From a bacterium (GTDB lineage: Bacteria > SZUA-182 > DTGQ01), in the NCBI GenBank assembly GCA_040755755.1, contig JBFLZW010000004.1, positions 1-64,000 of the forward strand: a stretch of 64,000 bases of DNA, read 5' to 3'. The notes beneath the pieces were generated by a model. That model searched no databases and was not told the DNA's origin. It saw only the letters and a list, made by a program, of their open reading frames with translations. The position numbers were made by a program, and so were the translations under genes. This document shows, piece by piece, positions 49,153-60,822 of this stretch; within the stretch, counting starts at the first letter, position 1, and every line of letters begins with the position of its first letter.

Positions 49153-49362
49153 ATGAAATCTGTGTCAATAGATCTGCCGGATGACTTGGCTATAGCCGTG
49201 GAGAGTTATGTAAAAGCTGGTTTGTTTCATTCTGAAATGGATGTTTTACTGGCTGCAATCTCTGAGTTTGTCCGCTGCAATAAGATTGATCTCATGGAAC
49301 GCTTTGCCCATGAAGATATCGAATGGGCAAAAAAAGAAGCTCGGAAGATCAAATGCCAATAG
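49153..49362 (+). CDS. Antitoxin, ribbon-helix-helix-like (VapB type)
   Basis: 69 residues. The N-terminus KSVSIDLPDDLAIAVESYVK with FHSEMDVLLAAISEFVR has the strand-helix-helix pattern of RHH antitoxins such as those preceding DUF3368 PIN toxins. GGGAG lies upstream. It overlaps the toxin start by ten bases and would both neutralise it and bind the inverted repeats upstream. Confidence 0.8.
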   Translation: MKSVSIDLPDDLAIAVESYVKAGLFHSEMDVLLAAISEFVRCNKIDLMERFAHEDIEWAKKEARKIKCQ

Positions 49363-49841
49363 CCGTCTGTGATGCTGGCCCGATCATTCATCTCTATGAG
49401 GCGGGATTTTTGTCTTCGCTTAATAATGTGGGTGAAATCTTACTGCCGCAAAGAGTATCAGCCGAAGTCCTGGCTATTACAGATATTGATGATCGCTGGC
49501 CTGAGTGGCTTCGAGTTATCCAGCTTTCCTCTTCAGAATTGAAAGAGGCTGAAATGTGGGCAAAGATTGGAGGCCTCCATACGGGAGAAGCGGATGCCTT
49601 TATTTTAGCCAGAATGCAGAAAGCGGATTGGCTGCTGACAGATGATTCATCTGCACGATTGTTTGCTTCTTTGCTGGGCTTGGAAGTGCATGGTTCTTTG
49701 GGTATTGTACTGTGGAATGCAGCCAAGGGATATTTATCAAGAAGGGAGGCTGAACAGGCACTGGACAACCTTAAAAGATCCTCTCTATGGCTTTCTGCCA
49801 AAACCTTTGAAGAGGCACAAAAAGCACTCATGGATATGTGA
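49353..49841 (+). CDS. PIN-domain toxin (DUF3368 type)
   Basis: About 162 residues from ATG 49353, behind GGAAGA. PIN-domain acidic residues are seen in VCDAGPIIHL, HTGEADAFILA and LLTDDSSARLFA, with the DUF3368-typical GSLGIVLWNAAKG. PIN toxins are Mg-dependent endoribonucleases. The frame is open back to 49323, but that would extend further into the antitoxin. Confidence 0.88.
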   Translation: MPIAVCDAGPIIHLYEAGFLSSLNNVGEILLPQRVSAEVLAITDIDDRWPEWLRVIQLSSSELKEAEMWAKIGGLHTGEADAFILARMQKADWLLTDDSSARLFASLLGLEVHGSLGIVLWNAAKGYLSRREAEQALDNLKRSSLWLSAKTFEEAQKALMDM

Positions 49842-50630: not shown

Positions 50631-53318
50631 CTATCTCAACAGCGGCAGAGAAAGCTGCTTGTCGGTAATGGCCTCGATGAAATACCCCTCTCCCATCTGG
50701 ATAGGGAAATCCTCTCCTCCCGGATGATTTCCAATCCAGTAGGTAAACTCGCATGCTCCTTTTGCCGGGTTATAGTGGTACAGACTTCCGGCAGTATTTG
50801 GACCGAGGTCCAGCAGAAGATCATGAGAGGAATACCGGTCTCCCATCACCACGGGTATTCCGACCAGATTGGTTCCCTGCTTTAAATTGAGCGTGCAGGA
50901 GGTAAGATTGGCACGTTGAATCTTCAGGTTAACGGTGACCGGTTGTTTGGCATAGACGGTATATCCTTCCTGGCTGCTGATGGGGAAATCAGAACCCCTC
51001 TTTTTCCCGTCCTGGGTATATCCGGCACTGATGTACTTTCCCTGGATCGTGTCGTACCGGCTGATGCTCTCAACCTTATTAGCGTCTCCCAGGAGAGAGA
51101 GCAAATCAAAAGCAGAGTCAATAGAACCCTCCGGTCCCGCCGGGTAACTGATCAGGTTTAAGCCCCTGGTTAACCTTAACTGAAGGGGGTATTGGACTTT
51201 TACCTTGATATGCACGCTAGTAACTAAGTCAAGATCACTAACCGTAATCTTCAAGGTATACTCACCGAGGTCAGCCAGACTGGTAAGATGGTGATACTCT
51301 TTGGGTATACCTGCTGATCCGCCCTCCGGGTCTTCCGGGGGGATTTGAGGCCAGTCCTTCGCCCCCCCCTGGATCGTATAAAAGAGATAGGGATTTTCAG
51401 CATCTTGGGCTACTACGGAAAAGCGCAGCTCTTTACCGGCATTCACCGTTATCTCCTGGCCATCCTGGGGTGAGGTAATAACCGGCCGGGTATTTTGCGG
51501 ACGGGGACGGTCCTCCTCCCTTGTCAGTTCAATGAGATAATTTTCCATGGTTGCATAGAACTGGAGAGTGACGGTTTTCGGTTGATATTTACTCTTCGTA
51601 ACTTCGAGCGTATAAGTCCCCAGGGGAAGAGGTACGTGAAAATTTCCTTCGGGCCCGCTCTCGATAGTATTGGCGATGGGGAGTATGACGGTTGAGGGCG
51701 CAGGAGAGATTTTGATTTCCGCACCTTTAAGAGGACTGTGATTCAGAATATCAACAACCTTGCCGGAAAATTGAGGCAGATTCAAGGCAAAGTTAAGCTG
51801 TTTGCTTCCTTCGGAAGGAACTCGCACCGGAGTGGCCGTATGGTTGGTATTACTCCCGCTGGACAGGGGCAGACGGGCTGTTATCGTGTAGTCTTTGTAG
51901 TCTCTGCGGTCTCCAGCCGTGCGAATGACCGGGAGAAAGAGCTGGTACGTGCCATCAGGATCGGTCGTTGTTGTTGCCTGGAGGTAAGGAGAATCAAGAG
52001 AGGTAGCTAAAACCTCTACCCGACCCAGAGGGATGCCGGTGATTTCATCACGGACAGTGCCGGGAATCATGATAAAGTCGCACTGGGTAGGACCGACAAC
52101 GTAAAATGTTTCATAGAAGGTGTATCTATGCCCATAAGAGATGGTTAGTGAAGATTCCTCACCAAGAAAGGATGGACTCAGCCCATAATCTCCATCAGGA
52201 AGCCTACTTATTAATTGGGCTACTCTCTGGCCTGAATAAGCAATATCAATAACGGCAGATTCCAGGCCTCTTCCTTCTTGATCCTTAACAACTCCAAAAA
52301 TAACTGCTGGCCAGACAATCATGGCTATAGAAGGACGGGCACTATTTAGGATGGTAGGGTAGAATCCACCAGAGGTAGCACCTCCATAAGACCCTCCATA
52401 AAATCCTCCATACCCTGAATACAGGTCGAGGCTGCTTGGTTGGAGGGAAAGAAGGCCATTGGGGTTGAAGGAATCTGGCAATCTTAGTGGCCAGGCGGCA
52501 TTATTTCCCGTCGAGGAAGGCATAGTGGGAAGGTAACTTCCCCCTGGCAGAGTAAGTGAATTCCCAAAGAGGGGATATGTATACCCGCCACCAGGCATAG
52601 AGTTTATCCCGAGCATCCCTCCTAAGATTGGGCCCGAAGGGGAGTTACCATATTGATAGCCCCCCATCTGTAAAGAGGAGAGAAGGGAGTTTGACAAGCC
52701 TAATGGATTAAAGGGTGACGTCATAAGGGTAGAAGCAAGTCCACCTAAAGGATATATTCCTCTTCCCTGGCTTGAGAGAAACGGTAACGGTAAACTGGGT
52801 TGAAGAGGAAAGGAGATATTGTTGAGTGCACCACTGGCACCGGGAAGAATGCCTCCCCCCAGACCGAAAAAGTTCATCAAAAGACTCGCATCTCCTCCAG
52901 GAGTGCTCCCGATAGGACTCATCGGAGCTGTCCCGACTATCCCTCCTCCCACAGGGGTCACTCCAAGCATAGACTGAGACTGCGATAGTATGGCCGCTGA
53001 CATCAATGTATTGCCGCCAAGGGATGAAGGTGAGATGAAGGGACTGAGCATAGTATTAAGCCCCATAGCCAGAGAAAGATCCGAACCGAACAGCATGGAG
53101 GGGTCCAGACCAAGTAATGATGGAAATTCTCCTCCTATTCCACCTGCCATCGCCTGAGCAGATGACATCTTGGTCATAGCAGCGGCAAAAGAAGCGAAGG
53201 AAGCATCTGCTCCCCCTGGATCCTTAATCGCCTGGGCGCATACATATCTTTGCGAACCACCCAAGATAGTCAACAAGATAACTGTATATACCCATCCCCT
53301 CAGAACCGCTGCCTTCAT
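50631..53318 (-). CDS. Large secreted Gly/Ser/Pro-rich protein with carboxypeptidase-regulatory-like domains
   Basis: 895 residues. A signal peptide (VYTVILLTILGGSQRYVCAQ) is followed by about 280 residues of Gly/Ser/Pro/Leu-rich low complexity (GGGIVGTAPMSPIGSTPGGD, GGFYGGSYGGATSGGFYP). From about 335 on, CarboxypepD_reg-like units occur (FGVVKDQEGRGLESAVIDIA, IPGTVRDEITGIPLGRVEVL, FSGKVVDILNHSPLKGAEIK). A beta domain (TSPQDGQEITVNAGKELRFS) follows. Two C-terminal repeats share the pattern LxLxxGxNLxxxP plus EGYxVYA/EGYFIEA. GGAAGG precedes ATG 53318. It lies 270 bases downstream of the FadL-like gene and is probably an exported surface protein of the same system. Confidence 0.72.
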   Translation of the reverse strand: MKAAVLRGWVYTVILLTILGGSQRYVCAQAIKDPGGADASFASFAAAMTKMSSAQAMAGGIGGEFPSLLGLDPSMLFGSDLSLAMGLNTMLSPFISPSSLGGNTLMSAAILSQSQSMLGVTPVGGGIVGTAPMSPIGSTPGGDASLLMNFFGLGGGILPGASGALNNISFPLQPSLPLPFLSSQGRGIYPLGGLASTLMTSPFNPLGLSNSLLSSLQMGGYQYGNSPSGPILGGMLGINSMPGGGYTYPLFGNSLTLPGGSYLPTMPSSTGNNAAWPLRLPDSFNPNGLLSLQPSSLDLYSGYGGFYGGSYGGATSGGFYPTILNSARPSIAMIVWPAVIFGVVKDQEGRGLESAVIDIAYSGQRVAQLISRLPDGDYGLSPSFLGEESSLTISYGHRYTFYETFYVVGPTQCDFIMIPGTVRDEITGIPLGRVEVLATSLDSPYLQATTTTDPDGTYQLFLPVIRTAGDRRDYKDYTITARLPLSSGSNTNHTATPVRVPSEGSKQLNFALNLPQFSGKVVDILNHSPLKGAEIKISPAPSTVILPIANTIESGPEGNFHVPLPLGTYTLEVTKSKYQPKTVTLQFYATMENYLIELTREEDRPRPQNTRPVITSPQDGQEITVNAGKELRFSVVAQDAENPYLFYTIQGGAKDWPQIPPEDPEGGSAGIPKEYHHLTSLADLGEYTLKITVSDLDLVTSVHIKVKVQYPLQLRLTRGLNLISYPAGPEGSIDSAFDLLSLLGDANKVESISRYDTIQGKYISAGYTQDGKKRGSDFPISSQEGYTVYAKQPVTVNLKIQRANLTSCTLNLKQGTNLVGIPVVMGDRYSSHDLLLDLGPNTAGSLYHYNPAKGACEFTYWIGNHPGGEDFPIQMGEGYFIEAITDKQLSLPLLR

Positions 53319-53588
53319 TGTCTCTTACCTTCCTAACCACCAACTAAGAGCTGCAACTTGCTTTTGAATAAAATGCAGACCAAGCCACAAGCCTAAATTC
53401 CGATTTGCAACATCAGTGCCTGTTATTGCAGGCATATGAAAGGAATTCTCTCCTATTAATCCCTTGTAAAATGAGAGTAAATATTGCTCATTATCTTTAT
53501 TTGGCCCTATCAGGCCATGAATTAACCTGAAATAAAATTCATATATGCATTTGTTTTCATGTATAGAAAATTTCCCCGAGAATTCCCG

Positions 53589-54905
53589 CTAGTAATAAAA
53601 AATGAGAGAGGATAAGAACAAATGCCGGAGAATTTTCACCTCATTTGCCCCCACCAGGCCCGTTTCGGTCGCATTAACCGCTGGCCCGGTTCGGTATTGA
53701 TAAGCAAAATCCAAAGCCAGGTGTTTGTCAGCGATTCCAATGCCAAAGCTCGCGCCGTAATAGTCATGAGGAGCATTTACCGATGGTTCAGGGTCATAAA
53801 ATCCCCCAAACCGGAGAGGAAGAACGATTCCCATTTTATCGTCCAAGATAAATGCCCGTTCCACTCCCAGACGAATAGAATAGGCAGGGTCCTTCTTTGG
53901 CACAACATCTCCTTTGGAAAAAGGACCAATCTCTCTCCCTTTCTCGACAATAGTGTAGTCCTGCCACCTTGTTCGGGTCACATCTCCGGCAAATGTCCAG
54001 GAGTCTCCCAGCCTATATGAAAGCCCTACTCCGTAGGCGGCGGGATAATTAATCTGAAATGTCCTCTCCTTATCTGGCAGATTGAGACCACTCGTGAAAC
54101 GATAATGACTCTTACATATCACGCTGGCCTGGAATGGTGTTTTGTATACTCCCCCTAATTGAAATTGCTGGGAAATTTGCCACAGGAATCCCAGGGTCCA
54201 GTTTTCTCCTGTAAAATTTTCATAGCTCATGCTGACTTCAGATATATCCACCAAGGATGAATTCGATGATGTGAATACACTACGACATTTGCTCTCCCAC
54301 TGACTCTTGCCAGTCTTACTGTCAGACCAGATATTTTTGGTAAAACCGGCATAAAAACCGGGAATAAATTCTATCGACATGGCTGGAGAAAGAGCGTAAA
54401 GAGAGCCTTCCTGATGAAAATCTATTTTTTGGGTAACCACCTTGTTTTTGTGCTCATAAGGATTAGAAATTTCAAATTGGACACTACGATTAAAGTCAAA
54501 TAGTCTCTGATAATTAATAGAAAAAAATATGTTTCTTTGCCAGATATTTCTGGCATAAGTGAAGCTGAGATAGTTGAGATCGGAAGACGAACTCTGAGAC
54601 CCTCCTTCATCTTCCAGAGGATTACCCCAGTCTTCTCGGCGTAAAAAATAATTTCCCACTACACACATCTCTGGTTTTTCTATTTGTCCAAGCCCTCCGG
54701 GGTTCCAGGATGCCGCAGTGGCATCGTCAGCTACGGCAATAAAGGCACCTCCCATGCCCTGGGCTCTGGCTCCTGAGCCTACTGGAACTGTAGGTGAGGT
54801 AGGGATCAGGTCATAATTAAAAGGACTGACACCGGCAGGAAATAACAACAAAGCCCCCAGGAGCAGGCAGGTCATCAGCCACCAGGAAATAACCGTTCTC
54901 TTCAT
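53589..54905 (-). CDS. FadL/PorV-like outer-membrane beta-barrel protein
   Basis: About 438 residues. ATG 54905 with GGAG nine bases upstream is preferred; the frame is open to 54935, where it overlaps the upstream stop. A signal peptide (ISWWLMTCLLLGALLLFPAG) is followed by PVGSGARAQGMGGAFIAVAD and DATAASWNPGGLGQ, the start typical for OMPP1/FadL and PorV-type barrels. Alternating strands run to an aromatic C-terminus (SLIFYY). It could transport hydrophobic substrates or take part in surface export. Transcribed directly after the lipoprotein gene. Confidence 0.8.
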   Translation of the reverse strand: MKRTVISWWLMTCLLLGALLLFPAGVSPFNYDLIPTSPTVPVGSGARAQGMGGAFIAVADDATAASWNPGGLGQIEKPEMCVVGNYFLRREDWGNPLEDEGGSQSSSSDLNYLSFTYARNIWQRNIFFSINYQRLFDFNRSVQFEISNPYEHKNKVVTQKIDFHQEGSLYALSPAMSIEFIPGFYAGFTKNIWSDSKTGKSQWESKCRSVFTSSNSSLVDISEVSMSYENFTGENWTLGFLWQISQQFQLGGVYKTPFQASVICKSHYRFTSGLNLPDKERTFQINYPAAYGVGLSYRLGDSWTFAGDVTRTRWQDYTIVEKGREIGPFSKGDVVPKKDPAYSIRLGVERAFILDDKMGIVLPLRFGGFYDPEPSVNAPHDYYGASFGIGIADKHLALDFAYQYRTGPAVNATETGLVGANEVKILRHLFLSSLIFYY

Positions 54906-54931
54906 CGCTCTCGTCTCCATCTTCCCTTCTC

Positions 54932-56995
54932 TCACTTGGTAATGACTCGATCTTTAACCCGGACAGTTTTCTGCTGATCCTTCACGATAATATCCGCTTG
55001 TGAAGTTTGCTCAAAGACCTTCATGATCTTGGCCTCTCCCAGAACATCGGGCAGACTTTCCAACACCTTTTGGGTGACCGGATCCTTCAATGTCCTGCCG
55101 TCGCGAAAAACGATAAATTTCGTGAATTCCTTGATATTTTTCGCTTTGCCGAGATTAACGAAAATGCTCCGCCCATCTTTTTCCACGATCACACCTTCCA
55201 CCAGCGGGAAGCTGTGCTTGAACTTCAGAGCCAGCCCCTCAAGAAGTGTCTTGAGGTTTTCAAGACCAGCCGGGCCGTAGACATCCTGGGAGTCCAGGAT
55301 CGCGGATGTTTCGATATCAATAAGGCGGGCCACGATCTCGATGAACCCCTTGTTCTCGTAAATATGGCCGGCCAGAACCGTTTCAGCGGATACCAGCTTT
55401 CCCAGTTCCAGGGGGGAAACCTCACGATTGCCTCCATCTGCATGCTGCAATTGACGCACAACCCGGTCAATCCGCTGGCGGTCTACCATGGAGAAGCGGC
55501 CTTGAGTCACGAAGGCATTGACCAGAAGCTCATTCATAAAATCCTGGTGATCATTGCGGTCTTCTTTCCCTCGCTGAGTAAAGGGAATAATGGCCATGCT
55601 CATCCGCGAGGCAATCTGATGGACCGGATTGACTTTGCGCACGATAGTCACAGACTTTGTCTTTTCATTACCGGCCAGGTCTATGGCTTTAATGGCTATG
55701 GTGGTTTTTCCGATCGGCAATTTTAAAATATAGTTAAAATAAATCCTCTTTCTTCCATCTCCTGACAGAATGGATTCATCATTGACCAGAAGGTCCCGAA
55801 TACCTCCTGCATCCTGAACCTCACCACAGATAAAGAGGGTCTCCCAGTCTACAGTCAGATCTCCCTTCGGAGCATCAAGTCGGACAGCAGGTGGCTGGGT
55901 ATCACGGGTTCCCGGCATGTCAGGGCCGCTGAGCCCTGCCAGTTGCAGCGAAGCAATCTGCATCGGATGTTCAGAAGAAGAAATATCGTGCTGATCCCCC
56001 TCTATTCCGATCCGTCCCTCCACCCGGTTGCCCAGACGATCTTCAGCCACGAAGGGGAGAGATGTCGCGGATTCATCCAGAGGAGAGCGAAAGAGGAACC
56101 TGCCCTCGTCACCTCGGAGTGAAACTTCCTGGTGATCGATCTGAAAAGTTTTGACACCACATAAATCCTGGATATATCCTTCAATCTGGATTTCTTTTGC
56201 TGTACGGCTACCCTCCTGGAGAATTTGCAGGTCATCGAGGTAAAGAAGAGGGGCCTGCCGGTCAGCGGTCAGATGCAGGCTGGCCACAGTTTCCTTTCCG
56301 ACCAGGTCCGTGGCCACAATTTTAACCTCGTTGACTCCTGCTTTGAGGTCAATGGTTGCTGAAAAGGGCATGTCCTGCCGGGAAAGCTCACACGGGTAAG
56401 GCACGCCATTGACCATGATTTTCCCGATAAAACAGTCATCCCATGCTCTGCCCTCAATGACCGCCTCAAAATCGTTAACCAGTTGCCGATCCTGATGGGA
56501 GGTAATAAATATCCGGGGAGAGGCGGTATCCTGTCGGGTTTGTCGTAATAAAGCCTCCCGGGAGCGATTCAGGTAATATTTTGCTTTGGCGGAAGGATAA
56601 CATTCCAGAGAGTAGGAAAGCTCCTGGATAGCCGATTGATAATCGGCCATTGCATAGTAGGCAATTCCAATTTCCCGGTGAGGAAAGTAATCATCGAGAA
56701 TATGGAGACCATAGGTGCGCACCCGGCGCTGGTCCCGATCCTTGAGCCGGATGGACTGCCGGAAGTCATCTATGGCCGGGGTCCAGAATTCTCCTTCGGA
56801 GTAGGAGAGCCCCCGCTCATAGAAATTCCAGAAATTGCCGCCCCAAATACCTTCAATCCAGCCATATTCTTTTCCTCCCTTGGAAAAAACCGGGCCGGGC
56901 TTGACCGCACATCCAGGCTGAAGGGCTAACAAAATAAGAGCCATTGTCCCGAGTATCATTTTAAACAACGGTGTAAACCTACCTTGCCTATTCAT
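54932..56995 (-). CDS. Lipoprotein with TPR-like, Ig-like and CsgG/FlgO-like domains
   Basis: 687 residues. The lipobox is LALQPGC after a hydrophobic signal (MILGTMALILLALQ). A TPR-like region (residues about 60-160, FYERGLSYSEGEFWTPAIDD and IGIAYYAMADYQSAIQELSY) is followed by beta-rich Ig-like repeats (MVNGVPYPCELS..., LLVNDESILSGD...IDLAGNEKT). A CsgG/FlgO-like domain follows (AIIPFTQRGKEDRN, FMNELLVNAFVTQGRFSMVD, IDIETSAILDSQDVYGPAGL), then a C-terminal domain FPLVEGVIVEKDGRSIFVNL. The last two domains resemble those at the end of the CHAT protein encoded next to it. Starts at ATG 56995, 26 bases after that gene. Confidence 0.78.
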   Translation of the reverse strand: MNRQGRFTPLFKMILGTMALILLALQPGCAVKPGPVFSKGGKEYGWIEGIWGGNFWNFYERGLSYSEGEFWTPAIDDFRQSIRLKDRDQRRVRTYGLHILDDYFPHREIGIAYYAMADYQSAIQELSYSLECYPSAKAKYYLNRSREALLRQTRQDTASPRIFITSHQDRQLVNDFEAVIEGRAWDDCFIGKIMVNGVPYPCELSRQDMPFSATIDLKAGVNEVKIVATDLVGKETVASLHLTADRQAPLLYLDDLQILQEGSRTAKEIQIEGYIQDLCGVKTFQIDHQEVSLRGDEGRFLFRSPLDESATSLPFVAEDRLGNRVEGRIGIEGDQHDISSSEHPMQIASLQLAGLSGPDMPGTRDTQPPAVRLDAPKGDLTVDWETLFICGEVQDAGGIRDLLVNDESILSGDGRKRIYFNYILKLPIGKTTIAIKAIDLAGNEKTKSVTIVRKVNPVHQIASRMSMAIIPFTQRGKEDRNDHQDFMNELLVNAFVTQGRFSMVDRQRIDRVVRQLQHADGGNREVSPLELGKLVSAETVLAGHIYENKGFIEIVARLIDIETSAILDSQDVYGPAGLENLKTLLEGLALKFKHSFPLVEGVIVEKDGRSIFVNLGKAKNIKEFTKFIVFRDGRTLKDPVTQKVLESLPDVLGEAKIMKVFEQTSQADIIVKDQQKTVRVKDRVITK

Positions 56996-57021
56996 TGTTC
57001 TGTATTTTTGATCTTGAGGTG

Positions 57022-59259
57022 TTAAGGAATGACTTTCATACCGGCTGCCAGGTCTTCGGATCTACCCAGGACTTTTGCGTAGCTGTAGTCTGCTTTTACC
57101 TCGGAAACCTCAAGTTCCCCAACTTTAACACTTTCTTCACCAATGATTTCTCCGTTTTGATAGATATGTTGATCTTTAATGATTTTTAGTTTTATTCCCG
57201 ATTTCAGCCCGTGCCTGGCCCCGATATTTACTATGACGCGATCGTAATTAATCACCGTTTTGATTCTCCCTTGCAAGGGGAAATGCTTATCAAGGGCTTG
57301 CGAAATTTGTTGGGCCAGGCGATCGGCTATCGCATCGGCGGATGTTCCACTTTCCCACTCTTCAGAGAAGGCAGCCTTCACGATCGAACTTTCATTTTCA
57401 ATAAGGCGTATGATAACCTGCAATTTTGAGCCGGTTCGGTAGAGAGAGCAGGTGCTCAGCAAATTGCCTGACAACAGCTCTCCAAGACGAAGTGCACATT
57501 CCTGATTTGCCAGAGGGGAAGAAGATACAGCCAACTCCTGCAGGATGACATCCAATTTTTCACGCTCTAAAACTGTAATGCGCTGGTTCCCCTGCAGATG
57601 CAGCATAATCTTGGTGAGGAGAATCTCTGTTTCAGCCTCTTCTCCTCCGCGAGCAGCATGGAAAAAGATCGTCAGGGGCCGAGAGCTCCAGGTATCTACC
57701 GGACCCTTTTTCCCCTGTGCCCATTGATATTTTTTGAGCAATCCCTGAAAAAATTCAGCTAAGGAGTTATCGTCCGTCAATCTATCGGCATCAGGAAACT
57801 GGTTGGCAGCTTTAACCGTAGTCCAACTGCCTGGTAAAAGATTAACCGATGTTGGCGAAAGACGGCTTTGCCTGCCATGAAAAACCGAAAACAGAGTACC
57901 GGCCACAGCCAGCGTTCCTAAAGTGGCTGCGGTGTACCAAAAGCGAGATCTGGCAGGTTTTGCTCCCCTGGCCGACTTTCCTTCACCGCTCTCCTGGCAC
58001 TCTTTTTCCGCTTGCCAGCTTCGCTCCATAAGCTCTGAGGGAGGCCGCGTTTTCCAGAGCAGGCCGCCCCGGCTTTTTTCCTGGATCAACCATTCCGTTG
58101 CCGGATTCCATTGGGGAACGACCGGAGGACTGCCAGGAAGCGGAGAGGAAAGCGTAGCCGACTGAGGCACAAACCGGAAATCCCGCTCTGCTGCCTCGTC
58201 TCTCATCAGCGGTTCAAAGTATCTGGCCGTAGGATCTCCATACAGCAGATAGCTTGCCCAGAGAATATTCTCCTGGCCATAGCGATCCTTGAGAGCCATA
58301 CGGGCCGATCTCATTGCCTGACCGATGCTTTGCCCGGTAAAAAGCTTGTAGTAAAATTCAATGGCAAAACTTGTGCTTGGCGTATCCAGCACCTTCCAGA
58401 AGGTGCCGACATAGTGCTGTACTCCGGCCAGAAGAAAGGCGTTGGCTAAACCATAGATTTTTTCGCCCTCCGAGGTACCTTTTTGCCATTCTTCGGTGGT
58501 ACCGGACTGACAGGCATTCGAGAACACCAGGGCAGGCATGGGGTTGACACCGGAAAGTTTATGGATGTCCAGAGCGGTAAATTTCCCGTCTTCGAGGATC
58601 CATCCACTGGCCGAAGGATCATCCAGATCATAATCCGCATGGCCCGCGTAGTGAATAAGATCAAATTGAAGCATCTTTTTTTTCAGATAATCGATGCTCA
58701 CTTCAGAGCTTACCAGGGTAATATTGACCGCCTTCTGCCGGAGGCTCTCACGGATACGGTTCCCTTCCTCGTAGGCCGACGGTAAATCTCCCCTGGGATC
58801 GGTAATGATGAGCATGTTCAGGGGAGGGTGAAAATCTTTCTTGACTCCAGGGGAAATAGCCTGCTGGGTCTTGACGATGCGGCCGATATTAAACCGCTCA
58901 CAGAAGAACTCCCGTCCCGTGTAAATCAATTCCCAGGGAACCTGGACCAGGCGGTTATCAATTTTCAGGATAATGTCTTCAACCGAGGTATTGGTAAGTT
59001 CCTTTTTGATACTGAGCGGAAAGATTTCATTATAGAGAACCTGCCCCATCTGCTGAAGCTCATGGAGGATCTTTCCTGGAATCTTTCCGTGACGGGAGAC
59101 GGCATTCAAAAGATGGAGAAGCTCGTTGCATCTGCGCTGCAGATCGAGGCTTGAGACTCGACTTTCTTCATAGTGGGTCAAAGTCTGCTCGCCTTCACTG
59201 AGACTGATCTCCAGGTTATCGGCTTTTCGGGATATTTCTAAATAGAGTGCCTCTTTCAT
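57022..59259 (-). CDS. CHAT-domain protease fused to a transmembrane segment and CsgG/FlgO-like domain
   Basis: About 745 residues from ATG 59259 (GGGAAG upstream); the frame is open to 59370 but overlaps the upstream gene. The CHAT (caspase HetF associated with Tprs) peptidase domain spans roughly 75-385, with VPWELIYTGREFFCERFNIG, catalytic His207 in LIHYAGHADYDL and Cys250 in ALVFSNACQSG. GVQHYVGTFWKVLDTPS and ASYLLYGDPTARYF also fit. One membrane segment (AATLGTLAVAGTLFSVF) follows a Lys/Arg-rich linker. The rest matches the CsgG/FlgO-like plus C-terminal beta unit of the neighbouring lipoprotein (HLQGNQRITVLEREKLDVIL; FPLQGRIKTVINYDRVIVNI). The CHAT domain should be cytoplasmic and the CsgG-like part periplasmic. 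The target protein is unknown. Confidence 0.85.
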   Translation of the reverse strand: MKEALYLEISRKADNLEISLSEGEQTLTHYEESRVSSLDLQRRCNELLHLLNAVSRHGKIPGKILHELQQMGQVLYNEIFPLSIKKELTNTSVEDIILKIDNRLVQVPWELIYTGREFFCERFNIGRIVKTQQAISPGVKKDFHPPLNMLIITDPRGDLPSAYEEGNRIRESLRQKAVNITLVSSEVSIDYLKKKMLQFDLIHYAGHADYDLDDPSASGWILEDGKFTALDIHKLSGVNPMPALVFSNACQSGTTEEWQKGTSEGEKIYGLANAFLLAGVQHYVGTFWKVLDTPSTSFAIEFYYKLFTGQSIGQAMRSARMALKDRYGQENILWASYLLYGDPTARYFEPLMRDEAAERDFRFVPQSATLSSPLPGSPPVVPQWNPATEWLIQEKSRGGLLWKTRPPSELMERSWQAEKECQESGEGKSARGAKPARSRFWYTAATLGTLAVAGTLFSVFHGRQSRLSPTSVNLLPGSWTTVKAANQFPDADRLTDDNSLAEFFQGLLKKYQWAQGKKGPVDTWSSRPLTIFFHAARGGEEAETEILLTKIMLHLQGNQRITVLEREKLDVILQELAVSSSPLANQECALRLGELLSGNLLSTCSLYRTGSKLQVIIRLIENESSIVKAAFSEEWESGTSADAIADRLAQQISQALDKHFPLQGRIKTVINYDRVIVNIGARHGLKSGIKLKIIKDQHIYQNGEIIGEESVKVGELEVSEVKADYSYAKVLGRSEDLAAGMKVIP

Positions 59260-59317
59260 GGCTTGCTTCCCATACTGCCCAGAGCGATGATTTTCCTCTC
59301 TGTCGTCAATTCCGTGC

Positions 59318-60028
59318 TCACGATGCCTTGCGCAGATCCAGCCGGACCTCGCCCAATTCCCTATCTTCAAAGAGGATCTTAATGAGGTATTTTCTGAGTT
59401 TCAGGTAGAAAATCGCTTCACTGTCCTCAATGGAGCTCAGCTCCCTTCCTCCTGAAAAGAGGGCCAGACGGGCACCGGTCAGGGGTGTTTGGTTGATAGG
59501 ATCCGAAGCATTGAGAATGACCTTATATGAGTCATTAATGCACTCGATCTGGATATCCATCTTCAGATCCTTGAATTCCTTGGAGATCGTAATGAAATCG
59601 GACAATTGGTCTTGCTTGATCTTATCCTCTTGTCCGCGGGCAGGCTGCAAGACAGGTTCTGGAGTCAGCAATTCTCCAGTGTTCTTAATAATCCTGATTG
59701 CTTTTTGGGTAATACTCAAAACTATTTCCAGAACTCGATTGGAACTGCCAAAGATAGCCTGTTTGGCTTTGACCATGAGCCTCTGAGGCACATCGACTAA
59801 TTCGCCAGCCATCAGCTGGTTTAAAATAATCAGTCTATCAGAGCAATAACGGCAACTCACAAGATGCTTGCCAATCTCTGTTCCTTCAGATTTGGGTAAG
59901 GTCCCCTGGTAATATGCTTCTAACCTCTCTTCAGTCAAGCAATCAGGAGTACAGCGGGGTACGGTCCCCCTTTTTCGGGGTGAGATACTGTGCAGTACCT
60001 CAGTCAACTTCTCAACGTCTCTTTCCAT
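59318..60028 (-). CDS. Zinc-finger anti-sigma-like regulator
   Basis: 236 residues. A zf-HC2-like motif is present: TPDCLTEERLEAYYQGTLPK ... IGKHLVSCRYCSDR, with H-x3-C-x2-C. No clear membrane segment is visible, unlike the other anti-sigma factor in this window. The C-terminal half is a beta-rich domain (MDIQIECINDSYKVILNASD, TGARLALFSGGRELSSIEDS). It lies between the ECF sigma gene and the CHAT gene and is probably a soluble or partner-bound regulator of that sigma factor. Confidence 0.75.
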   Translation of the reverse strand: MERDVEKLTEVLHSISPRKRGTVPRCTPDCLTEERLEAYYQGTLPKSEGTEIGKHLVSCRYCSDRLIILNQLMAGELVDVPQRLMVKAKQAIFGSSNRVLEIVLSITQKAIRIIKNTGELLTPEPVLQPARGQEDKIKQDQLSDFITISKEFKDLKMDIQIECINDSYKVILNASDPINQTPLTGARLALFSGGRELSSIEDSEAIFYLKLRKYLIKILFEDRELGEVRLDLRKAS

Positions 60029-60090
60029 GGTTTAACTCCTTGTCAGGTGGACTCTTTTTAAGGTTAACATCACCCAGATAGACGAATAAT

Positions 60091-60711
60091 CTAAAAATCC
60101 CTTATGAACGTTTCCAAATCACGGTATAAATTTTTTTCCTTGGCAATCTGAACAAGCTTATTAACCAGCCGGAACTTCAATTGGTGAATGGCATTCAACT
60201 TCAGGTTCATAATCCTTCCCACCTCGTCGGAACTGAGCTCCTCTTCGAAAATCAGCTTGAAGAAAAGCTGGTGCCGGGGGTTGAGCTCTTTTTTTAATTC
60301 CCCGATAATATTTTGCAATTGCTTCAATTCAAGATTATCATAGCCTGACTCCAGAGAGGGGCTTTCCGGGACATCCTCAATATCCAGAAAGAATCGTTTC
60401 TCTCGAAGAAAATCCACCGTGTTGTGAAAACAGATTTCCCGCAGGTAGGCGGTAAACGATTTTTCCGTTGTTCCCCGGAAATTTTGCAGCCTGCGGCAGT
60501 CATTCTCCAGCAGTGCGGCAAAAATCCGGTTGTAGATTTCCTCTAACTCATCCGATTGAAACTGAAAGTTATATCTTTTTAAAGTTTTAATAATATAATT
60601 GTATATCAGTTTGCTGTACTTGGCAATGAATTCATCCCAGGCACGCTCATCCCGGCTGATACAGGCTTCCAGAAAACCTGTAATCTCTCCATCTTGTAGT
60701 ATGGTATTCAT
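60091..60711 (-). CDS. ECF-type sigma factor of the CHAT operon
   Basis: 206 residues. Region 2 features: WDEFIAKYSKLIYNYIIKTL, ELEEIYNRIFAALLENDC and FTAYLREICFHNTVDFLREK. Region 4: ELKKELNPRHQLFFKLIFEE then LSSDEVGRIMNLKLNAIHQL. It is a divergent ECF. AAGGAG lies 12 bases before ATG 60711. It heads a minus-strand unit of sigma, zinc-finger protein, CHAT protein, lipoprotein and barrel. Confidence 0.85.
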   Translation of the reverse strand: MNTILQDGEITGFLEACISRDERAWDEFIAKYSKLIYNYIIKTLKRYNFQFQSDELEEIYNRIFAALLENDCRRLQNFRGTTEKSFTAYLREICFHNTVDFLREKRFFLDIEDVPESPSLESGYDNLELKQLQNIIGELKKELNPRHQLFFKLIFEEELSSDEVGRIMNLKLNAIHQLKFRLVNKLVQIAKEKNLYRDLETFIRDF

Positions 60712-60792: not shown

Positions 60793-60822
60793 ACTATAAT
60801 GAAAAGTCATCTGCCATGTCAA
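60793..60822 (-). promoter_or_regulatory. Promoter of the sigma/CHAT operon
   Basis: On the minus strand TTGACA (60817-60822) and TATAGT (60793-60798) are 18 bases apart, about 80 bases before the sigma gene. It is divergent from the cyclophilin promoter. Confidence 0.6.

Follow-up and report, generated by a model that had tools for sequence, protein, structure and literature searches.

An operon of an ECF sigma factor, a zinc-finger protein and a predicted membrane-spanning CHAT protease as a candidate envelope-to-transcription signalling cassette

The window analysed here, a stretch of 64,000 nucleotides of a bacterial contig, carries on its minus strand six genes (60711-50631), which are called SIG, ZNF, CHAT, LIP, BAR and CARB in that order. 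We propose that they constitute an envelope-to-transcription signalling cassette in which CHAT cuts ZNF at Arg131 and thereby frees SIG, a statement to which, taken as a whole, we give somewhat better than even credence. The proposal builds on the observed gene conservation, catalytic dyad, invariant linker arginine, periplasmic domain shared by two of the proteins and recurrence of the cassette; sigma binding by ZNF, the cleavage, its site, the signal and the regulon are what we infer. Regulated proteolysis, one of the roles that the first-pass annotation named for CHAT proteases elsewhere, is the best reading of the CHAT gene.

In the proposed mechanism, ZNF would bind and silence SIG in the cytosol. 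CHAT would be an inner-membrane protein whose caspase-like protease faces the cytosol and whose TolB/FlgT-like domain lies in the periplasm, and it would probably assemble with LIP through their paralogous periplasmic domains, BAR and perhaps CARB completing the envelope sensor. A change in the envelope, read by LIP and BAR through the periplasmic domains, would activate the protease, which would then cut ZNF after Arg131 (Arg131-Gly132), in the linker between the sigma-binding and the beta domains, and the cut ZNF would release the sigma factor. A precedent is provided by Csx29, whose cut in the sigma inhibitor Csx30 lifts the inhibition of CASP-sigma (PMC10028731).

The features are the following, all on the minus strand.

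60793..60822, housekeeping-type promoter TTGACA-N18-TATAGT upstream of the operon, read in the sequence
60091..60711, SIG, ECF sigma factor, 206 aa (TIGR02937, Sigma70_r4), with orthologues in G001-G004
59318..60028, ZNF, predicted soluble zinc-finger anti-sigma protein with a C-terminal beta domain, 236 aa
59843..59866, zinc motif of ZNF, His55-x3-Cys59-x2-Cys62, conserved among homologues
59609..59659, linker of ZNF, residues 124-140 (pLDDT < 50), which holds Arg131-Gly132
59638-59633 (codons), Arg131-Gly132, candidate CHAT cleavage site, from its conservation in ZNF homologues
57022..59259, CHAT, predicted cytosolic CHAT protease, transmembrane (TM) helix and periplasmic CsgG/TolB-FlgT domain, 745 aa
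58639..58641, predicted catalytic His207, invariant in 19/19
58510..58512, predicted catalytic Cys250, invariant in 19/19
57880..57936, TM helix of CHAT predicted by hydropathy, residues 442-460
57061..57684, predicted periplasmic TolB/CsgG-like (526-661) and FlgT_C (673-733) domains of CHAT, from a FlgT_C match and fold search
54932..56995, LIP, lipoprotein, 687 aa (Pfam: TPR, two Glucodextran_B, CsgG, FlgT_C)
53589..54935, BAR, FadL/PorV-like outer-membrane barrel, 448 aa (PF03349)
53406..53420, sigma-54-like -24/-12 element upstream of CARB, GGCACTGATGTTGCA, pattern GGCAY-N6-TGCA
50631..53318, CARB, exported surface protein with CarboxypepD_reg domains, 895 aa (PF13620), at the same place in G001-G004

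Conservation and transcription of the operon

According to the first-pass annotation, a CHAT protease tethered to the membrane shares an operon with a sigma factor of the ECF type, a zinc-finger regulator, a lipoprotein and a FadL-like barrel. All of these genes exist, and the co-encoding is borne out by domain matches and gene order. The interval that it assigned to them, 54932-60711, contains the genes from the sigma factor to LIP, but the barrel (54935-53589) falls outside, and the CarboxypepD_reg gene at 53318-50631, which follows BAR after a gap of ~270 bp, is a member of the same conserved cluster. Lack of conservation of the gene set had been named as evidence that would count against the operon. 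G001, from the same genus, G002 and G003, from the same family, and G004, from the same order, all share the arrangement SIG-ZNF-CHAT-LIP-BAR-CARB, which with the window's own genome makes 5/5 genomes of the order; the identity of CHAT across the G001-G004 orthologues is 72-49%. Given the kept order and this identity, the comparison indicates that the conservation of the operon is not due to chance. Among the genomes of the same class, G005 keeps ZNF-CHAT as far as the contig end, and no strong match to the CHAT profile was found in G006-G008. Rfam gave no match anywhere in the window. A DUF3368 (PIN-like) protein is encoded upstream of the cluster on the opposite strand (window 49323-49841).

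SIG scores 62.2 bits against TIGR02937 (cut-off 42.9, E 4.5e-17), which together with its length of 206 aa places it in the ECF class; Pfam sigma region 2 is undetected in the window SIG and detected in that of locus L053. The L036 and L043 orthologues retain the TTGACA-N18-TATAGT element, L038 has a weaker form of it, and because of this conserved element the operon is probably transcribed by the housekeeping sigma factor. Since its promoter is housekeeping-like, nothing points to autoregulation by the ECF sigma factor, which counts against the proposed mechanism.

The 50.6-53.3 kb gene, i.e., CARB, had also been suspected to depend on the ECF sigma factor. This is not supported, as the conserved upstream element resembles a sigma-54 site. 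It is present in 4/5 orthologues and the genome encodes rpoN (G000:C31:129247-129720), so that sigma-54 is a better guess than the ECF sigma factor for CARB, although the GGCAY-N6-TGCA pattern is expected ~1 time per window by chance and is not significant alone.

The CHAT protease, its candidate target and the envelope module

The open frame of CHAT runs from a TTG at 59370, inside ZNF, and the start was placed at the ATG at 59259 because the orthologues align from there; the earlier numbering of His207 and Cys250 fits the resulting 745-aa protein. CHAT matches PF12770 with 124.8 bits (cut-off 24), as a member of the CHAT family does, and its fold search is headed by human separase (Z 13.4), Csx29 (Z 13.3) and DdvA (Z 12.2). 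The AlphaFold model is of low confidence (pLDDT 58), too low to define the S1 pocket, which weakens the case for the proposed mechanism. Loss of His207/Cys250 in homologues was the other observation that the first-pass annotation had named as contradicting its reading; both residues are retained in 19/19 of the in-class and near sequences compared, and the dyad is also found in all further CHATs checkable by alignment or motif, the motif search having failed to resolve L133 and L135.

Asp154 and Asp158, located between the strand 147-153 and the helix 160-172, are invariant among ten CHAT homologues. In MALT1 and gingipain R, the P1 Arg is held by an Asp located where helix alpha1 begins (PMC4357240), and Asp154/Asp158 appear to occupy the corresponding place, where an Asp sets the P1-Arg specificity of these enzymes. 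The two residues were also considered as a specific mark of the ZNF-paired CHATs, which was rejected because they are present in CHATs without ZNF too, a point that also counts against the proposed mechanism.

The predicted TM helix of CHAT is weak in the window copy, with a mean hydropathy of 1.42, which counts against the proposed mechanism; nearly all homologues show it clearly at this position, with values of 1.8-2.9. Because the flanking Lys/Arg residues are in excess on the N side (74 vs 50 on the C side, 20 sequences) and no signal peptide was found in the CHAT protein, the protease domain is predicted to be in the cytosol. The C-terminal half resembles FlgT (3w1e, Z 10.4) and TolB (Z ~10), and the region earlier called CsgG-like is a CsgG/LpoB/TolB-like plus FlgT_C pair. 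Fold and domain order are those of the FlgT/TolB/CsgG/LpoB periplasmic domains; the difference is that here a CHAT protease would be joined to them from the other side of the membrane and that they are duplicated in LIP, which has the same pair and whose C-terminus is homologous to that of CHAT (BLASTP E 6e-7).

LIP has a GCAV lipobox-like motif that is retained in the orthologues, and BAR, which is conserved adjoining LIP, matches PF03349 with 35.7 bits (cut-off 29.7), the BamG/PorV models remaining below their cut-off. The presence of paralogous periplasmic domains on CHAT and LIP and the encoding of LIP beside the barrel suggest a trans-envelope assembly of an inner-membrane CHAT with an outer-membrane LIP next to the barrel. 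Since the CsgG-like domain of CHAT is placed across the membrane from the protease and is common to LIP, input is likelier than output for this domain, with a role in sensing or assembly; the "CsgG-like output" of the first-pass annotation lacks support for the same reasons. A text search for papers with both "CHAT domain" and "CsgG" found none. Another user of the periplasmic domain pair is a redoxin-TPR-CsgG-FlgT_C protein encoded in the same genome (L035:8122-10116, C31).

The N-terminus of ZNF resembles the anti-sigma domain of DdvA (8rlz, E 0.017), and ZNF matches the ChrR model TIGR02451 under the cut-off (E 8.5e-4). The HxxxCxxC zinc motif lies in the N-terminal helical domain (helices 33-73), as in ZAS proteins, and its ligands are conserved in the homologues (C59 and C62 in 23/23, H55 in 22/23), zf-HC2 being recognised in homologues but not in the window ZNF. 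No TM segment was found in ZNF or in the ZNF homologues checked. From adjacency and family we infer that ZNF is an anti-sigma factor that binds and silences SIG. The AF2 model places helices within 2-92 and strands within 99-234, with a beta-sandwich from ~145 to 236 for which the fold search gave generic Ig-like matches only (best Z 8.1); ZNF is thus modelled as two domains joined by a variable linker that is predicted to be disordered.

Within this linker, Arg131 is invariant in 24/24 ZNF homologues from ~14 families, a constancy like that of the zinc cysteines, and the residue that follows is Gly in 16/24. Other near-constant positions are L190 (23/24) and F207 (24/24). The linker minus Arg131 has a mean pairwise identity of 20% among 15 divergent representatives, and a lone fixed Arg in a drifting, probably flexible linker would have the look expected of a cleavage site. 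Csx29 itself is not known to cut after Arg, which counts against the proposed mechanism. Clan CD families that cut after Arg include clostripain, separase, gingipain R, metacaspases and paracaspases (PMC4357240).

Recurrence of the sigma-ZNF pair beside CHAT genes

The cassette was searched for in 386 genomes, and in ~14 bacterial families the sigma and ZNF genes were found to recur beside CHAT genes, whose architectures number at least five. Besides the CHAT-TM-CsgG build, these are cyclase-CHAT-TM-(TPR)-CsgG with LIP and BAR (G048 and G196, and also G326 and G056, where contigs end), CHAT-TM-PEGA (G143 and G280), zinc ribbon-TM-CHAT (G348 and G219) and TPR-CHAT (G314, G110 and G300). In G244, the pair adjoins a divergent CHAT that Pfam did not detect. 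In G143 and G280 (L089:7642-10804 and L090:130-3376), the CHAT-TM-PEGA gene is followed by a second small gene and then by the sigma-ZNF pair; PEGA plus TM and a redoxin-like small gene are as seen in L089. The pair stays with CHAT where LIP, BAR and CARB are lost and the architecture of CHAT has changed.

Fourteen ZNFs of the search profile came from loci found via CHAT, and bias was checked on the seven homologues found by the profile alone (L130, L131, L132, L133, L135, L112/L137 and L164). A CHAT gene adjoins 5/7 of these, as against 1/20 in a control set of generic zinc-finger loci from the tail of this search; the five include L130, where the contig ends within a gene that begins as a cyclase of the CHAT-fused kind, and L164 is in both groups, being one of the 20 control loci and, on reading, a full-length ZNF homologue. 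The Arg is present in all six of the profile-only ZNFs that were aligned, and L164 has one at about the same place, as judged by eye. L132 and L164 are ZNF homologues that still keep the Arg without an adjacent CHAT, which speaks against the proposed mechanism. The distances of SIG, ZNF and CHAT correlate with r 0.62-0.70, uncorrected for species relatedness, and 0/2000 permutations were as high.

Three further loci may be mentioned here. The sole CHAT locus of the generic control (L163:363-8998, G329:C5) combines an ECF sigma factor with a membrane anti-sigma factor that has two zinc fingers and with a FecR/cohesin/CarboxypepD_reg protein; its CHAT protein bears an apparent signal peptide and, in such a topology, would act in the periplasm. 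At L164:3-7962 (G003:C322), the sigma-ZNF pair is followed, without CHAT, by a giant LVIVD-repeat protein containing a legumain-type Peptidase_C13 domain; this family is also of clan CD, and a swap of the protease family is possible. The window's own genome has a second CHAT with an N-terminal nucleotide cyclase domain (L034:9447-14978, C30), accompanied by a LIP-like lipoprotein and an LVIVD-repeat protein, and no sigma or ZNF genes were found near it; loci of this type are also present in G001 (L037) and, as far as the CHAT and lipoprotein genes go, in G002 (L039).

As far as these comparisons indicate, the finding is more general than the first-pass annotation could see. It is conceivable, though we hold it only tentatively and at less than even credence, that CHAT proteases form a class of anti-sigma proteases that is widespread and that Craspase is one captured branch of a conserved cassette. 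The ECF sigma factor and the zinc anti-sigma factor with its Arg motif would then be plugged into envelope, cyclase, TPR and PEGA CHAT sensors.

Alternative explanations and known systems

An alternative order of events is that a cytosolic cue is sensed at the zinc site of ZNF, as in ChrR/RshA, and that CHAT is a member of the regulon, SIG switching on CHAT, LIP and BAR, which would then serve envelope assembly or protein turnover. The ChrR-like zinc motif of ZNF fits such a scheme, as do the location of LIP, BAR and CARB downstream in the same operon and the fact that soluble zinc anti-sigma factors are normally redox-driven (PMC8999054). However, it leaves the invariant linker Arg unexplained, the operon promoter resembles the housekeeping type and not an ECF one, and the sigma-ZNF pair stays with CHAT despite the loss of LIP, BAR and CARB and the changed build of CHAT; we consider it unlikely. 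Another possibility is that CHAT does not cleave at all and, following a pseudo-protease logic, acts as a membrane receptor that binds ZNF via the Arg motif and pulls it off SIG by sequestration or partner switch. The invariant Arg could indeed be a docking residue, and DdvA, the closest solved anti-sigma factor with a CHAT fold, has this fold in the anti-sigma factor itself. A role in binding only would not demand the His/Cys dyad, which is kept across very divergent copies, and we therefore regard a non-cleaving CHAT as quite improbable.

The first-pass annotation also mentioned a part of CHAT proteases in defence. If CHAT were the effector of a Craspase-related defence or cell-suicide system, this would agree with the equal closeness of the CHAT fold to Csx29, with the pairing of CHAT and an ECF sigma factor and with the type III RAMP genes elsewhere in the genome. 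A defence role is unsupported, however: PADLOC gave no convincing match (only BovA, E 2.5e-5, via the CHAT domain), no Cas7-11 or other cas gene was found among the neighbours read, and the operon is vertically conserved in the order and has envelope partners, so that we judge this explanation to be highly improbable.

The proposed cleavage of ZNF by CHAT is closest in logic to the type III-E Craspase/CASP system (PMC10028731), in which a CHAT protease, a sigma-inhibitor candidate and an ECF sigma factor are likewise encoded together; the CHAT fold matches Csx29, and inhibitor cleavage that frees a sigma factor is proposed for both. The window CHAT differs in being predicted to be membrane-bound with a periplasmic domain, and its inhibitor would be a zinc anti-sigma factor and not a recognised Csx30; an envelope sensor is proposed where Craspase has CRISPR. 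Membership in Craspase was rejected, as no cas genes are adjacent (the RAMP genes are on contigs C33, C36 and C61, CHAT genes on C4 and C30), no TPR was found in the window CHAT, in contrast to the TPR-CHAT of the G314, G110 and G300 cassettes, and SIG reaches 30 bits with the CASP-sigma model NF041236, well below the cut-off of 100. The system, as proposed, works like Craspase yet lacks the features of Craspase membership.

DdvS/DdvA of Myxococcus xanthus (PDB 8rot, 8rw5, 8rlz) shares the ECF sigma factor, the zinc-type anti-sigma factor and the CHAT-like fold. DdvA, however, is a single transmembrane anti-sigma factor containing that fold, whereas ZNF and CHAT are two separate genes, the former without a TM segment and the latter with a protease predicted to be cytosolic, and an assignment to the DdvA type was rejected. 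CHAT proteins also occur in the conserved context of the ECF54 sigma factors, for which control by proteolysis has been suggested (PMC8999054, after Casas-Pastor 2021); that group is described as lacking an anti-sigma factor, and no envelope module is named for it (PMC8999054). The sequence of envelope signal, protease, loss of the anti-sigma factor and free ECF sigma factor is that of RseA/DegS. There, a membrane-spanning anti-sigma factor is the substrate of proteases in the periplasm and within the membrane, whereas here the anti-sigma factor is predicted to be soluble and the protease membrane-spanning. Regulated intramembrane proteolysis of the RseA type was rejected on account of the missing TM segment in ZNF and the homologues checked.

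The logic of a CHAT cleavage that frees a sigma factor is so far demonstrated only for the CRISPR-linked relative; distinct here are the predicted membrane-spanning CHAT receptor, the predicted soluble zinc anti-sigma factor with a conserved candidate site and the proposed trans-envelope module. If the proposal is true, bacteria would possess a receptor in the membrane that cuts a soluble anti-sigma factor directly, by means of a caspase-like domain on its cytosolic side; no description of this layout was found in the literature searched. The exact scissile bond would then be named. The proposal would also suggest where the sigma-releasing output of the CRISPR Craspase might have come from, and it would give a function to CHAT genes, which are common but mostly without an assigned one.
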